Source of the DNA: Candidatus Woesearchaeota archaeon
GTDB taxonomy: Archaea > Nanobdellota > Nanobdellia > SCGC-AAA011-G17 > GW2011-AR20
Assembly: GCA_018302465.1 (NCBI GenBank)
Contig: JAGVZQ010000011.1
Coordinates: 1-32,591, forward strand
Reading direction: 5' to 3'
Length of the DNA stretch: 32,591 bases
The notes beneath the pieces were generated by a model. The model did no database searches, was not told the origin of the DNA, and saw only the letters and a program-made list of their open reading frames with translations. Every line of letters begins with the position of its first letter. Position 1 is the first letter of the stretch. Both the position numbers and the translations under genes were made by a program. This document shows positions 4,686 to 29,435 of this stretch, in pieces.

Positions 4686-5318
4686 CATATTAATTTTATG
4701 TGCCCATTCTCTGATGACGAGTCCATATCCATGGGAGGTACAATAGCAAAATATTCTACAGAAGGAAAGAAAGTAATAGTTATAATATTCTCATACGGAG
4801 AAGCTTCCTTGCCTCATTTAAAGCCGGAATATGTTAAAGAAGTAAGATTAAAAGAAACAGAGCAGGTTTCTAAAGTTCTCGGTATTAATCAGACTGTTTT
4901 TTTAGGATTGCCTGATGCAAAATTAAAAGAATATGAACACGATAAAAAGCTCATTAAAAAAGTAAAGAGTTTAATAAAAACATATAACCCAGAAAAAATA
5001 TTTACCCATTCAGAAACAGACCCCCATCATCCAGGAGACCATAAAGCAGTATACAATGTGGTTACAAAAGCAGTGGACTCTATAAAGAAAGAATATGACC
5101 TTTTCACTTTCGAAGTATGGAACATTATTCCTGAAAATAAACCAGTTATGTATGTAGATGTTTCAAAGTATTTTAACATAAAAATAAAAGCAATAAGCCT
5201 TTTCAAAAGCCAGTGGTTCTCTGTAATCTTAACAATACTTCCAGTCTACATAAGAGCAATAAAATATGGGTTAAAGGCAAAATGCAGATATGCTGAAAAA
5301 TTCTATAAAATAAGATAG
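4678..5318 (+). pseudogene. PIG-L/LmbE family deacetylase with a 2-nt frameshift in the catalytic HxDDE motif
   Basis: ATG 4678 encodes MGNILILCAHS; removing 2 nt from TCTCT (4708-4712) continues as DDESISMGGTIAKYS..., including THSETDPHHPGDHKAV. Confidence 0.75.
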
Positions 5319-5360
5319 TCTCCAGAATAATTTAAATACTCTATTTCTATCAATTATAAC

Positions 5361-5678
5361 ATGCATAGTATACTTCTTCATCAACATAAGAGAAAAATTA
5401 AATCAAAGAAGTCAGAAAATAAGTTCAAAACTATTGATAATTTAGTTACAGTAGTTGCAGTAGTATATCCATTAAGTACAATTCCCCAAATAATTGGAAT
5501 ATGGGTTAACAAAAATACAGAAGGTATCTCTTTAATCACGTGGTCTCTATTTTTAGTTTTACAGTCAATACTTTTAGTTTATGGGATTGCACATAAAGAG
5601 AAAAGGTTAATACTAATGTGGAGTCTATGGTGTCTTGTATATGCTATAATAGTGGTGGGTTTAGTATTATACTCTTAA
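5361..5678 (+). CDS. PQ-loop/SemiSWEET-like membrane protein
   Basis: VYPLSTIPQIIGIWVNKNTEGISLITW, three TM segments. Confidence 0.75.
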   Translation: MHSILLHQHKRKIKSKKSENKFKTIDNLVTVVAVVYPLSTIPQIIGIWVNKNTEGISLITWSLFLVLQSILLVYGIAHKEKRLILMWSLWCLVYAIIVVGLVLYS

Positions 5679-24717: not shown

Positions 24718-25270
24718 AATAACAAAAAATACAACAATAAGTGAAGCTTTGGAGATGTTTCCAAGAGCAGCTGAAATAATGCAGAGTCATGGTTTACATT
24801 GTGTTGGCTGTCATGTAAATGTAATGGAGAGCATAGAAGGCGGAGCAAAAGGCCACGGTATGGATAATGAAGCAGTTAATCAGATAATTAATGATATAAA
24901 TGAAGCAATGGAATCAAGTAAAACCTCTGGATCTCAGCAATTAATAACTCCATTAATAGTAACTTCAAAAGCTGCAGCTAAAATAAAATCATTATTACAG
25001 GCAGAAAATAAGCCGGATTATGCTCTAAAGGTTTCTGTTCTTTCTGGTGGCTGCTCAGGTCATAAATATGATTTATCCTTTGTAAAATCAGCAAAAGAAG
25101 GAGATTATGCCATAGAGAAAGATGGAGCTAAGATCTTTGTGGATAAAGATAGTTTAGAGTTCCTAAGTGGGTCAGAATTAGACTTTGTTGAGTCTTTAAG
25201 TGAATCTGGGTTTAAGTTCAAAAATCCAAATGCAAAAACTACCTGTGGTTGTGGAGATTCTTTTAGTTAA
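24710..25270 (+). CDS. DUF1858-HesB/IscA (A-type carrier) fusion
   Basis: N-terminal DUF1858-like MFPRAAEIMQSHGLHCVGCHVNVMESIEGGAKGHGMD; C-terminal A-type LSGGCSGHKYDL and TTCGCGDSF. Confidence 0.85.
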   Translation: MSKITKNTTISEALEMFPRAAEIMQSHGLHCVGCHVNVMESIEGGAKGHGMDNEAVNQIINDINEAMESSKTSGSQQLITPLIVTSKAAAKIKSLLQAENKPDYALKVSVLSGGCSGHKYDLSFVKSAKEGDYAIEKDGAKIFVDKDSLEFLSGSELDFVESLSESGFKFKNPNAKTTCGCGDSFS

Positions 25271-25641
25271 TGAAAATGCCAAGAAACACAAGTACTGAAG
25301 ATACAGCATTAATTCTAAATATAATAATAGAATCAGATAATGTACAATCAGTCTCAGGGCTAGCAGGTATAACGGGTTTAAGTGAAAGATTTTTATACGA
25401 TTTAAAAAGAAGAGGAATAGTTAATCTCCCTAAAGGTAGAAGAGGTCCACCAAGATATACCTACGGTAGAATTGCAGAGGAACTTGGTTTAGTAATAATG
25501 CTCGCATCTATTGGTTGCCCAAAAACACAAATAGCAAGAGAATTAGATATAAAACCAGAATCGGTTGGAGACTTTATCGGAAAAGACAGAAGATTGTATG
25601 ATACATGGAAAAGAAACAGATATTACCCATTACACAATTAA
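25270..25641 (+). CDS. HTH DNA-binding protein at the end of the SUF operon
   Basis: Two HTH-like segments; start overlaps the preceding stop. Confidence 0.55.
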   Translation: MKMPRNTSTEDTALILNIIIESDNVQSVSGLAGITGLSERFLYDLKRRGIVNLPKGRRGPPRYTYGRIAEELGLVIMLASIGCPKTQIARELDIKPESVGDFIGKDRRLYDTWKRNRYYPLHN

Positions 25642-25672
25642 ATTAATATACTTCTTTCATTTCCTTTAACCA

Positions 25673-25717
25673 ATGGATAAACTAAGATTCGGAACAGCTG
25701 GAATTCTAAATAAGTGA
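25673..25717 (+). pseudogene. Stranded 5' end of the endonuclease IV family gene: MDKLRFGTAGILNK*
   Basis: Near-identical peptide to DRLRFGTAGI at 27082-27111, interrupted by the insertion. Confidence 0.8.
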
Positions 25718-25740
25718 TATTTCACAACAATCTTTATATA

Positions 25741-25757
25741 TTAGTAACACTTACTAA
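25741..25757. promoter_or_regulatory. Candidate RHH operator, perfect inverted repeat TTAGTAA-cac-TTACTAA
   Basis: Directly follows TATA-like TTTATATA and lies 8 nt before the RHH ATG. Confidence 0.65.
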
Positions 25758-25765
25758 ATAATACT

Positions 25766-25882
25766 ATGTCTAAATTAAAAACTATGAAAATAAGAGAGGA
25801 GGTTCATAAAAAATTAATGGCACTAGGTAAAAAAGGGGAAAGTTTTTCTGATATTATTGAAAGATTAATTAAGAATGGATAA
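25766..25882 (+). CDS. Ribbon-helix-helix, VapB/DUF217 antitoxin-like (38 aa) MSKLKTMKIREEVHKKLMALGKKGESFSDIIERLIKNG
   Basis: KTMKIREEVHKKLxxLGKKGESFSDIIERLI; overlaps the endonuclease ATG by 8 nt (ATGGATAA). Confidence 0.75.
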   Translation: MSKLKTMKIREEVHKKLMALGKKGESFSDIIERLIKNG

Positions 25883-27083
25883 AATAAATTTATTAGAATT
25901 GATAGATGATAATTGGTATGTTGATATAGATAAAAATATATTAAACAAATTAATAGAAAAATCAAAAGAAAAACTAGGAAGTCTACGAGCGGTATCAGAG
26001 TATTTTAAAATTAATATTTCTACAATATCTAGATGGCAAGGAAAAGTAAAAAACAAAAATACGAAACCAAGTTATAAAAATATAAAAAAATTAGCAGAAT
26101 TAGGTAATACTCCTATAGATAAAGACATTACAGGGATTAAGCTAAATAGCGGGCATAATTTTCTAAGCTTAACCTCATTAAAGTTAAGCCAAGAATTAAT
26201 AAGAAGTGTAGCATTTATTATAGGGGATGGAGATATAGGTAAAAGAAGAGTAAGATTTGCTAACAGTAACAAATTAGCAATAAAAAGTATTTTATCTGAT
26301 ATATCTAAAATTTTTAATTTAAAAAATCCATGGATAAAGCTCACATATCCAAGAAATTCTAAAAAATCTAAAATAATAGAATCAGTAAAGGAGTGGGAAA
26401 CGTATTTAGGTTATAAAATTAACGGGGTATATGAAAAACATAATACAAAAATAAGAGGAAAGCCATTCAAATCAAAAAAAGAATATGTAGAAGTATCATT
26501 CCATTCATCAACCCTATCAGAAATAATAATAAGAATTTTACCAATTTTAAGAAAAGAAATTTTGCTTAATAAATCATTATCAATCGCCTACTTACAAGGA
26601 ATCTATGCTGCAGAAGGAAGTATAACTAGCAGAGAAAAAAATAAGCTTAGAGTTATACAACTAAATATGAAAGATAAAAATGAAATAATTTATATAAAAA
26701 AAGTTTTAAATTTACTTAATATAAGAAATTCTGGAGAAAGATTTGATTTAGGAAATAATGCTTGGTATATCAATATAACGGGAAGAAAAGAAATAGAAAC
26801 ATGTCTTGATATGGATATTTTCAAGATAAATTCTGAAAGAAAAATAAAGTTAGAAAAAGTAATAAATAATTATGAGAGATATCAAGTCACACCAGTTAAA
26901 AATAAAGAAAGATTTTTACAAATTACAAGCATACTAAATGATGGAACTTTTAACTCCCTACAAGTGTCCAATGCTTTAAATATGTCTTTAATAAGAACAC
27001 AAGTATTGCTAAAAAAAGGCTTTGACAAAGGAAAATGGAATAGAATCTGGAATGGAAGTGAATTTATATATGAAAAAGATTGA
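25875..27083 (+). CDS. LAGLIDADG-family homing endonuclease with flanking HTH-like segments
   Basis: Two LAGLIDADG-like helices: LIRSVAFIIGDGDI and LSIAYLQGIYAAEGSI. Confidence 0.85.
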   Translation: MDKINLLELIDDNWYVDIDKNILNKLIEKSKEKLGSLRAVSEYFKINISTISRWQGKVKNKNTKPSYKNIKKLAELGNTPIDKDITGIKLNSGHNFLSLTSLKLSQELIRSVAFIIGDGDIGKRRVRFANSNKLAIKSILSDISKIFNLKNPWIKLTYPRNSKKSKIIESVKEWETYLGYKINGVYEKHNTKIRGKPFKSKKEYVEVSFHSSTLSEIIIRILPILRKEILLNKSLSIAYLQGIYAAEGSITSREKNKLRVIQLNMKDKNEIIYIKKVLNLLNIRNSGERFDLGNNAWYINITGRKEIETCLDMDIFKINSERKIKLEKVINNYERYQVTPVKNKERFLQITSILNDGTFNSLQVSNALNMSLIRTQVLLKKGFDKGKWNRIWNGSEFIYEKD

Positions 27084-27906
27084 TAGGCTTAGATTTGGAA
27101 CTGCAGGGATTCCCACCTGTACAAAGGGAGATACTATTCAGGGCATTAAAGATGTTAGGGGGTTAGGGTTAGATTCTTTCGAATTAGAATTCGTACATTC
27201 AGTTAATATTAAAGAGGATAAAACAAATTTAGTAAAAGAAACAGCAAAGAAAAATGATATAATTCTCACTGCTCATGGAAGTTACTACATAAATTTAAAT
27301 TCTGATGATAAGAAGAAGATAGAGGCTTCTAAAAAAAGAATACTAGATGCAGCAAGAGTACTTTCTTTATGTGGAGGCCATTCAGTATGTTATCATGCTG
27401 GATTCTACCAGGGGCAACAACCTGAAAAAGCATTTAAGAAGATAAAAGAAGAAATAAAGGATATCGTCAGACAAGTAAAGAAATTTGATAAGGAATTATG
27501 GATTAGTCCAGAAGTAAGTGGGAAACCTTCCCAATTTGGAAGTGTTGATGAATTAATAAAGTTGAGCAAAGATATTGAACAGGTAATGCCTTGTATAGAT
27601 TTTAGTCACAATTTTACTAGATCCATAGGTAAAGCCAACAGATTAGAGGATTTTAAAGAAGTTTTAGACAAAATAAAAGACAACTTGGGAAGAGAATATT
27701 TAGAAAGAATGCATATTCATATAGCCGGAATTGAATTTGGAGAGAAAGGAGAAAAAAATCATTTAATTTTAGAAGAATCAAAATTTAACTACAAAGATTT
27801 GTTAAAAGTTTTAAAAGAATTCAAATGTAAAGGCGTAATAACTTGTGAATCTCCTAATATTGAAAAAGATGCTTTATTATTAAAAAAATATTATGAAAAG
27901 ATTTAA
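27070..27906 (+). CDS. Endonuclease IV/AP endonuclease family 2 (TIM barrel); true start likely ATG 27070, not 27022
   Basis: RLRFGTAGIPTCTKG; LTAHGSYYINL; YHAGFYQG; SPEVSGKPSQFGS; PCIDFSH; MHIHIAGIEFGEKGEKNHL. Confidence 0.88.
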   Translation: MKKIDRLRFGTAGIPTCTKGDTIQGIKDVRGLGLDSFELEFVHSVNIKEDKTNLVKETAKKNDIILTAHGSYYINLNSDDKKKIEASKKRILDAARVLSLCGGHSVCYHAGFYQGQQPEKAFKKIKEEIKDIVRQVKKFDKELWISPEVSGKPSQFGSVDELIKLSKDIEQVMPCIDFSHNFTRSIGKANRLEDFKEVLDKIKDNLGREYLERMHIHIAGIEFGEKGEKNHLILEESKFNYKDLLKVLKEFKCKGVITCESPNIEKDALLLKKYYEKI

Positions 27907-29435
27907 GCAGAGCAATAAACTCTAGTATCCCCAATATCCTCAAATTCTCCTACTTTCAAAGATACTGTTTTAGATGAAGTTGGAACTGATCTCCCGCCGC
28001 CAATATTCAGGCTAAGAGATGCTTCAACCTGTGCCTTTGGAATTTCTAATACAACTTTATCACTAGCCCCATTAAACTTCGGATTCTTAATTATAACTCC
28101 ATAAGCAGTTCTATGGTCTTCATCTTTAGTGCCTATTAATGAATCCCCAGCTTGATCAAGTTTATAATCCCACATAACTTCTCTGGATTCCTCTAATCCT
28201 TTTCTCTCCCCAAGTCCACCATTAATACCTCCGCGAGAATTAATTGAGATAAGGTCTAAAGGAGTAGATATGAATAAGTTTTGTCCGCCTTTAGAGACAA
28301 AATTAAGAGCTATGAGGTATACATCATTATTAAGTTTACCAAATGCCTGATAATTTCCATAATCAGAGTTTATTTTAGAGGTTAATTTTTCAACAGTTCC
28401 CCTGTTTATATTTTTATAATAAACCCCATTTCCACTATCAATATAAACTTCATTTGCATTAATCTCATCTCTACCTAATTTTATATTTCCTGTAGGTGAA
28501 GATATCTTAGTTACTTTTTCCCATTGAGATCCTCCTGCTTCTCTTAAATCAACTCCCCCATCATAGAATCCTCCCCCAATATATTCTATTGTAAAAGTAT
28601 TATAATCTTCATCATTGCTTAATCCATCTAAACATACCCTTCCATATTCATTAGGCAATTGAACACATTCACCTAATCTAGGAGGATTATCTGAATCATC
28701 ATTATAAATAAAGTCATTTTCTATGCCAAATTTAGGTCCAGCAGTACTAGTCCACCAACCATCTATGTTCCAAACCCAATCAGGGTCATTTATATCTTCT
28801 CCCCAGAATGCATCCCCATTATTAACAACCTCTCTTACTCCATTTCTTATAACAGTCATTTGACCACCATAACTTATAGTGTTGCTTCTTGAACTGCTAG
28901 AATCTCTCATTCTTGAATCTATTGTAAATGTGCGCCCCATCAAGTTATAAGTCTCAGTACCAATTCTATCGTAATCTGAACGAGTTATTCCATTTCTTCC
29001 ATCCATTGAATCAATAATATACTTTATTCCATTTCTTCCAACTTCCATTACCACATCTGTTTGATAATCATCTTCTGATGCAGTCAAAGAAGTCATAACC
29101 TTAACATTATTGTCAGCACTAAGTTTGGCTTGTCTAACTTGGGTAGTATCTATTAAATCATCCACATAAGAAGATCCCAAATCAACATTTTTAGATTCAC
29201 TTAATTGAACAGTTTTAATTATATCCCCACATTTATTATCCTTCCACTCACAATTTTTATCCTGGGCACAAGCAGCTTGTCCATATGCTCCAGTATAATC
29301 ACTACATTTTGGGTTTTCAGATTCAGGAATTATATCACTACTAGGATTACTCCTTATCCCAACAGCATCTTGACAACCAGCAATAACTAAAACAGAAACT
29401 AAAAAAAGTAAAAATAAAAATTTATTTTTTATCAT
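27903..29435 (-). CDS. Lipoprotein, large extracellular, unknown function
   Basis: Signal peptide with lipobox LVIAGC; short Cys motif CSDYTGAYGQAACAQDKNCEWKDNKC. Confidence 0.7.
   Translation of the reverse strand: MIKNKFLFLLFLVSVLVIAGCQDAVGIRSNPSSDIIPESENPKCSDYTGAYGQAACAQDKNCEWKDNKCGDIIKTVQLSESKNVDLGSSYVDDLIDTTQVRQAKLSADNNVKVMTSLTASEDDYQTDVVMEVGRNGIKYIIDSMDGRNGITRSDYDRIGTETYNLMGRTFTIDSRMRDSSSSRSNTISYGGQMTVIRNGVREVVNNGDAFWGEDINDPDWVWNIDGWWTSTAGPKFGIENDFIYNDDSDNPPRLGECVQLPNEYGRVCLDGLSNDEDYNTFTIEYIGGGFYDGGVDLREAGGSQWEKVTKISSPTGNIKLGRDEINANEVYIDSGNGVYYKNINRGTVEKLTSKINSDYGNYQAFGKLNNDVYLIALNFVSKGGQNLFISTPLDLISINSRGGINGGLGERKGLEESREVMWDYKLDQAGDSLIGTKDEDHRTAYGVIIKNPKFNGASDKVVLEIPKAQVEASLSLNIGGGRSVPTSSKTVSLKVGEFEDIGDTRVYCSA

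Follow-up and report, generated by a model that had tools for sequence, protein, structure and literature searches.

The locus considered here raises the question of why an endonuclease IV family gene should have two starts on an archaeal chromosome, one as a fragment of a few codons and another, beyond two further open reading frames (ORFs), as part of a complete gene. It lies on contig JAGVZQ010000011.1 of a Candidatus Woesearchaeota archaeon; the whole stretch of 32,591 nucleotides that was analyzed is termed the window, and the genome that contains it is labelled G000. From sequence comparison, the insert between the two starts is probably an element composed of an RHH-regulated LAGLIDADG endonuclease and, attached at the 3' end of the latter, a target gene copy of its own, which is divergent and presumably resists cleavage.

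Upstream of the locus is a run of Suf-type iron-sulfur genes, followed by a 123-aa ORF. The first gene start, or stub, has the text ATG GAT AAA CTA AGA TTC GGA ACA GCT GGA ATT C and reads into a TGA codon (MDKLRFGTAGILNK*). The features that follow are listed in Table 1, and the ATG of the complete gene falls within the 3' end of the LAGLIDADG ORF. This arrangement of a partial copy running into a stop, RHH and LAGLIDADG ORFs, and a full downstream gene had been described in the initial annotation, and is confirmed by the sequence and by Pfam. The full gene product is an AP_endonuc_2 TIM barrel according to Pfam, and models of deoxyribonuclease IV match it below their cut-off. The palindrome TTAGTAACACTTACTAA has 7-nt arms and is the sole copy in the window.

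Table 1. Features of the split endonuclease IV family locus, in positions of the window
Feature	Position	Strand	Remarks
Native endonuclease IV family gene 5' stub	25673..25706	+	34 nt = ATG + 10 codons + 1 nt; out of use
Predicted promoter TTTATATA and overlapping palindromic operator TTAGTAACACTTACTAA (25741-25757)	25733..25757	+	Palindrome; putative function
38-aa RHH (VapB-like) ORF, predicted operon autorepressor	25766..25882	+	PF02697, E 7.2e-9
402-aa free-standing LAGLIDADG endonuclease ORF	25875..27083	+	PF14528, E 6e-6
Complete endonuclease IV family gene	27073..27906	+	ATG at 27073, stop ends at 27906; PF01261, E 7e-29
Foreign divergent block (allele B)	27163..27708	+	Codons ~28-209, numbered from GAT at 27082
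Native 3' fifth of gene	27709..27906	+	Right recombination junction near codon 210, MHIH

Native and foreign parts of the gene

The match of the stub to the gene exceeds chance, with none of 60 shuffles reaching its score in one scan and a p of 1.7e-4 in another. In the relative G009, the 123-aa ORF, the spacer behind it and the beginning of the gene are colinear with the window through ...GGAATTC, after which the gene continues intact, and G001, a member of the same genus as the window genome, is colinear over the last part of the stretch aligned in G009. The empty site in relatives without the element thus reads ...GGAATTC followed directly by CT. The gene is uninterrupted in the element-free relatives G001, G009 and G012, and the stub is identical at 29/31 nt to the first two and at 28/31 nt to the third, as against 24/31 nt to the window's downstream copy. 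Since the codons of the stub match the element-free relatives over the downstream copy, the stub is the native gene start and the downstream start is the newcomer. The expectation that uninterrupted relatives would match the upstream copy at the empty site has therefore been borne out, the codons of the element-free relatives being of the stub type and not of the downstream type. In G001, the intact gene (L053, minus strand, near 4799-5593) is missing 12 codons, including the conserved glutamate of CESP, within an otherwise open frame, which may point to a loss of activity or to an assembly error.

The extent of the newcomer is apparent from sliding comparisons of nucleotide identity. Over codons ~40-210, the window gene is 78-88% identical to the genes of G050 and G044, members of families other than that of the window genome, in most intervals, with the lowest values at 68-76%, whereas over the same codons it is only 50-75% identical to genes of its own family. 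In the final ~60 codons, identity is 81-96% with the own-family genes of G001, G009 and G012, and 66-80% with those of G050 and G044. A two-breakpoint scan places the block at codons 28-209, with a maximum chi2 of 76.8 compared to no more than 17.4 in 200 permutations (0/200). In a tree of codons 40-209, G000, G050 and G044 are joined with 100/100 support, and the placement of G000 with its own family is rejected (p-AU 6e-4). For codons 1-37, a single clade of the three allele-B genes is rejected (p-AU 6e-4); for the last 63 codons, the rejection is borderline (p-AU 0.051), and the mosaic test at the 3' end is weak taken alone. Together, the mosaic identity, the scan and the trees indicate that the newcomer is a divergent foreign allele, termed allele B, over about three quarters of the gene, and not a synonymous rewriting of its start. 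What they describe is a functional gene with a foreign replacement from a donor lineage.

It had initially been proposed that the element carries a recoded, synonymous version of the 5' end. The differences at the 5' end are indeed mostly synonymous, but they are not confined to it; the foreign stretch continues to codon ~209, and in its middle allele B is non-synonymously divergent from the native gene. In codons 1-15, the copy differs from the native genes at 10-12 of 45 nt, mostly synonymously, and native genes differ from one another at 4-11 of 45 nt. This divergence lies only at the upper edge of the range among intact genes, and not clearly outside it, so that purposeful recoding is unsupported and a foreign ortholog suffices.

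The allele-B block is present in 3 of the 383 genomes of the class, namely G000, G050 and G044, and no further carriers were found in the class genomes or in a scan of GTDB. A 5' stub accompanies allele B in all three carriers and is found in none of the ~50 other homologues with sequenced flanks.

The same locus in other families

In G050 (record JACPIN010000002.1), the order of stub, RHH ORF, homing endonuclease gene (HEG) and endonuclease IV family gene, the palindrome and the overlapping gene start are all as in the window. The RHH ORF has a 78% identical homologue in the equivalent position, TTAGTAANNNTTACTAA is found at the place equivalent to the palindrome, and the two endonucleases are 56% identical. 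Stub lengths vary, at 11 codons in G000, 22 in G050 and 15 in G044, and hence give no support to one fixed site of cutting and insertion.

The window endonuclease harbors both acidic motif positions (IIGDGD and AAEGS), and the acidic residues are conserved with the G050 homologue. A Foldseek comparison pairs its predicted fold with that of I-DmoI (prob 1.00, TM to target ~0.64), using an AlphaFold model that was built from two sequences and that, with a pLDDT of 63.6, is adequate for the core fold only. By its PF14528 match above the cut-off, this modelled fold and the two acidic motifs, the protein has the make-up of a LAGLIDADG enzyme and is a putative homing endonuclease. An extra helix-turn-helix-like region is found at its N-terminus, together with a C-terminal extension. 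Between G000 and G050, dN is 0.31 and dS is 1.87, values that mark the protein as maintained by purifying selection. No relatives of the endonuclease were found in viral contigs.

Other types of insert were also considered. A group I intron was rejected, as positions 25200-28200 contain no Rfam match to a known RNA, group I introns included, and the downstream gene is complete, so that no splicing is needed. Likewise, the stub, the endonuclease and the gene are set apart by stop codons, which excludes an intein. The insert is not a VapBC toxin-antitoxin module, for the VapB-like 38-aa RHH ORF stands alone with no PIN gene.

Such a module is found in G044 (L052:2270-3850), where the stub is followed by a VapB-sized ORF and a PIN toxin (PIN_2) in the place of the endonuclease, and then by the allele-B gene. 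The lack of an HEG at this locus, despite the presence of both stub and allele B, counts against the homing reading. Duplicated gene ends around VapBC modules were sought in 40 other PIN regions as well as in G044, and only the G044 locus was positive; with 0/40 elsewhere, VapBC modules were rejected as general carriers of duplicated gene ends. Given the absence of such a general tendency, G044 may represent a homing scar in which the endonuclease has been replaced. The stub and copy in G044 are identical at 41/44 nt. In G012 (L055:5201-6343), a nucleotidyltransferase gene and an 84-aa ORF form an insert at the 3' end of the endonuclease IV gene, and this 3' end is duplicated beyond the nucleotidyltransferase insert with 85/88 nt identical. 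The need for a resistant copy offers no explanation for near-identical duplicates of the kind seen in G044 and G012.

Endonuclease genes at other gene ends

A survey of stretches around endonuclease genes was made in related archaea. In the order and the class, LAGLIDADG ORFs adjoin the ends of conserved genes, including those for Elp3, GlyRS, type III RuBisCO, TopoVI-A and endonuclease III. Of 32 listed HEGs, 21 overlap the end of the neighboring gene and 26 either overlap it or lie within 15 nt, although the list was picked for such neighbors and gives no rate. For 86 free-standing HEG ORFs, 8 of 138 tests recovered the facing end of the neighboring gene on the far side of the HEG (p<1e-3), compared to 0 of 304 controls, which were other ORFs in the same loci. 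These positives are at type III RuBisCO, Elp3 (of the window genome), TopoVI-A (two), endonuclease III, GlyRS and endonuclease IV (two), and six remain when the two endonuclease IV seeds are removed. Weaker candidates are found at PEP synthase, AlaX, EndA and RtcB. The window locus is not a lone case. Most of the surveyed free-standing HEGs have no detectable duplicated end, which counts against the homing reading. Apart from endonuclease IV, most of the archaeal gene-end cases are at the 3' end.

The window genome itself contains a second gene-end HEG (contig C2:7418-8491; L192:3419-4498), which overlaps the 3' end of elp3 and beyond which lies an 18-codon remnant of an elp3 end (YFEKLGYEREGPYMSKEL*); as to which of the two ends is native, the comparison gives close values of 38/54 versus 35/54 nt, a point that also counts against the homing reading. 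Related HEGs that are convergent with type III RuBisCO are present in three genera (L154, L156 and L159, in G077, G055 and G045, respectively), and in G077 a second copy of the 17-residue RuBisCO C-terminus lies past the HEG. A tree of 32 HEGs sorts by target gene across families, with 9 label changes where the minimum is 8; shuffled labels give a mean of 17.1, and none of 200 shuffles is as low as 9. Homing predicts such sorting by target gene, whereas random insertion does not.

It seems rather more plausible than otherwise that Woesearchaeota and related archaea harbor a guild of these genes, in which each HEG lineage is tied to one end, 5' or 3', of a conserved gene that differs from lineage to lineage, and spreads by putting its own version in place of this end and often of much of the gene besides. 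As a separate observation, the 0.75-Mb window genome has 21 PF14528 matches, and large ORFs with a PF14528 domain, which are probably inteins, abound in the order.

Proposed route of spread and its rivals

The window element can, with good though not full confidence, be regarded as a self-contained homing element that targets an endonuclease IV family gene at its start, and as one lineage of the Woesearchaeota gene-end guild. The endonuclease would enter a cell with an intact gene and cut within the 5' part of that gene. On the right side, homologous recombination would link the conserved 3' fifth of the recipient gene to the copy brought in; the left side would be closed by either recombination through short homology or end joining within the first 11-23 codons, and the native 5' stub would stay in place. 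The recipient would thereby acquire the endonuclease and a working hybrid gene, the carried copy of which would resist cutting. The RHH protein is predicted to repress the operon, and the hybrid gene would be expressed from the element operon through its overlapping start codon. As expression would be tied to the operon by this overlap, a clean loss of the element would leave the repair gene damaged.

Homing endonucleases that replace gene ends are documented mainly from the mitochondria of fungi. If the process also operates on the chromosomes of archaea, at a 5' end, alongside a regulator and in many gene-tied lineages, it would be a general way for selfish DNA to become costly to lose and to move pieces of core genes between families. 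If such a guild exists, selfish elements are a recurrent cause of the shuffling of core-gene alleles among archaeal families, and toxin-antitoxin modules can refill emptied scars. Such a process would account for mosaic core genes that disturb the phylogenies of Woesearchaeota-related archaea, and the empty and occupied alleles would give enzyme studies naturally paired sites, one cut and one uncut.

The divergent copy could instead have arrived by ordinary horizontal transfer and recombination, with the endonuclease as a passive neighbor or decayed passenger that drives nothing. G044, with allele B and a stub but no HEG at the locus, is consistent with this, as would be a general recombination of Woesearchaeota genes between families. 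We consider it unlikely, as 56% identical HEGs under purifying selection occupy an equivalent place in two families, HEG lineages follow the ends of their target genes, stubs are confined to allele-B carriers, and the 40 other VapBC regions are devoid of duplicated ends. Integration of the Campbell type, in which a circular molecule with the HEG and a portion of the gene is inserted through a single crossover or the action of a site-specific recombinase and the stub is then trimmed, is known from prophages and islands at icd or tRNA genes, where the gene end is duplicated, one copy is borne by the element, and an integrase and an identical core are needed. Duplicated gene ends around cargo, as at the window locus, are its signature, and the nearly identical repeats of G044 (41/44 nt) and of the G012 3' duplication (85/88 nt) are in keeping with it. 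In the window insert, however, no recombinase ORF is seen, and the longest identical run between stub and copy is 5 nt, which leaves no attachment core; integrase-dependent gene-end integration was rejected on these two grounds. The mosaic gene with its one clean junction near codon 210 also argues against a Campbell-type origin, which is accordingly judged quite improbable. An assembly chimera, or an upstream start that resembles the gene by chance, has the least to recommend it and is very improbable indeed: the genomes were assembled from metagenomes and consist of many contigs, but the order and overlap are repeated in the independent genome G050, the 5' flank is colinear with the intact gene in relatives, and similar cases occur at other genes.

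Homing with gene-end replacement is thus the best explanation, as was first suggested, and the fungal mitochondria invoked with it are the right precedent (PMC3630166). Fungal mORFs with duplicated gene C-termini are known for atp6, atp9, cox2 and nad3 in Glomus and for atp6 in Allomyces macrogynus (PMC3630166). Like the window element, they consist of a free-standing endonuclease gene at a gene end (LAGLIDADG in most mORFs), carry a foreign end replacement, leave a native remnant and form a hybrid gene; correspondingly, a native end remnant lies beyond the endonuclease gene in the window and G050, and the gene is uninterrupted in G001, G009 and G012. The window element differs from the mORFs in its archaeal chromosomal location, its use of the 5' end, and its RHH regulator and operon. 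The archaeal cases differ further in the foreign stretch of about three quarters of the gene (window) and in the many different housekeeping targets. A literature search, largely without subscription journals, found the gene-end pattern described for no archaeal or bacterial chromosome, and the sole paper found to link Woesearchaeota with homing endonucleases concerns group I introns (PMC6125680).

Phage T4 SegG and other free-standing endonucleases mediate intronless homing with co-conversion of neighboring sequence (PMC2988022), and resemble the window endonuclease in standing outside an intron or intein. The T4 enzymes are of the GIY-YIG or HNH type, are encoded intergenically and cut hundreds to thousands of bp away (PMC2988022), whereas the insert in the window splits its very target gene and leaves the end of that gene in two copies. 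The closest solved fold to the core of the window endonuclease is that of I-DmoI, an archaeal LAGLIDADG monomer. However, I-DmoI is intron-encoded (title of PDB entry 1b24), whereas the window endonuclease has no intron and possesses the helix-turn-helix-like N-terminus and the C-terminal extension.
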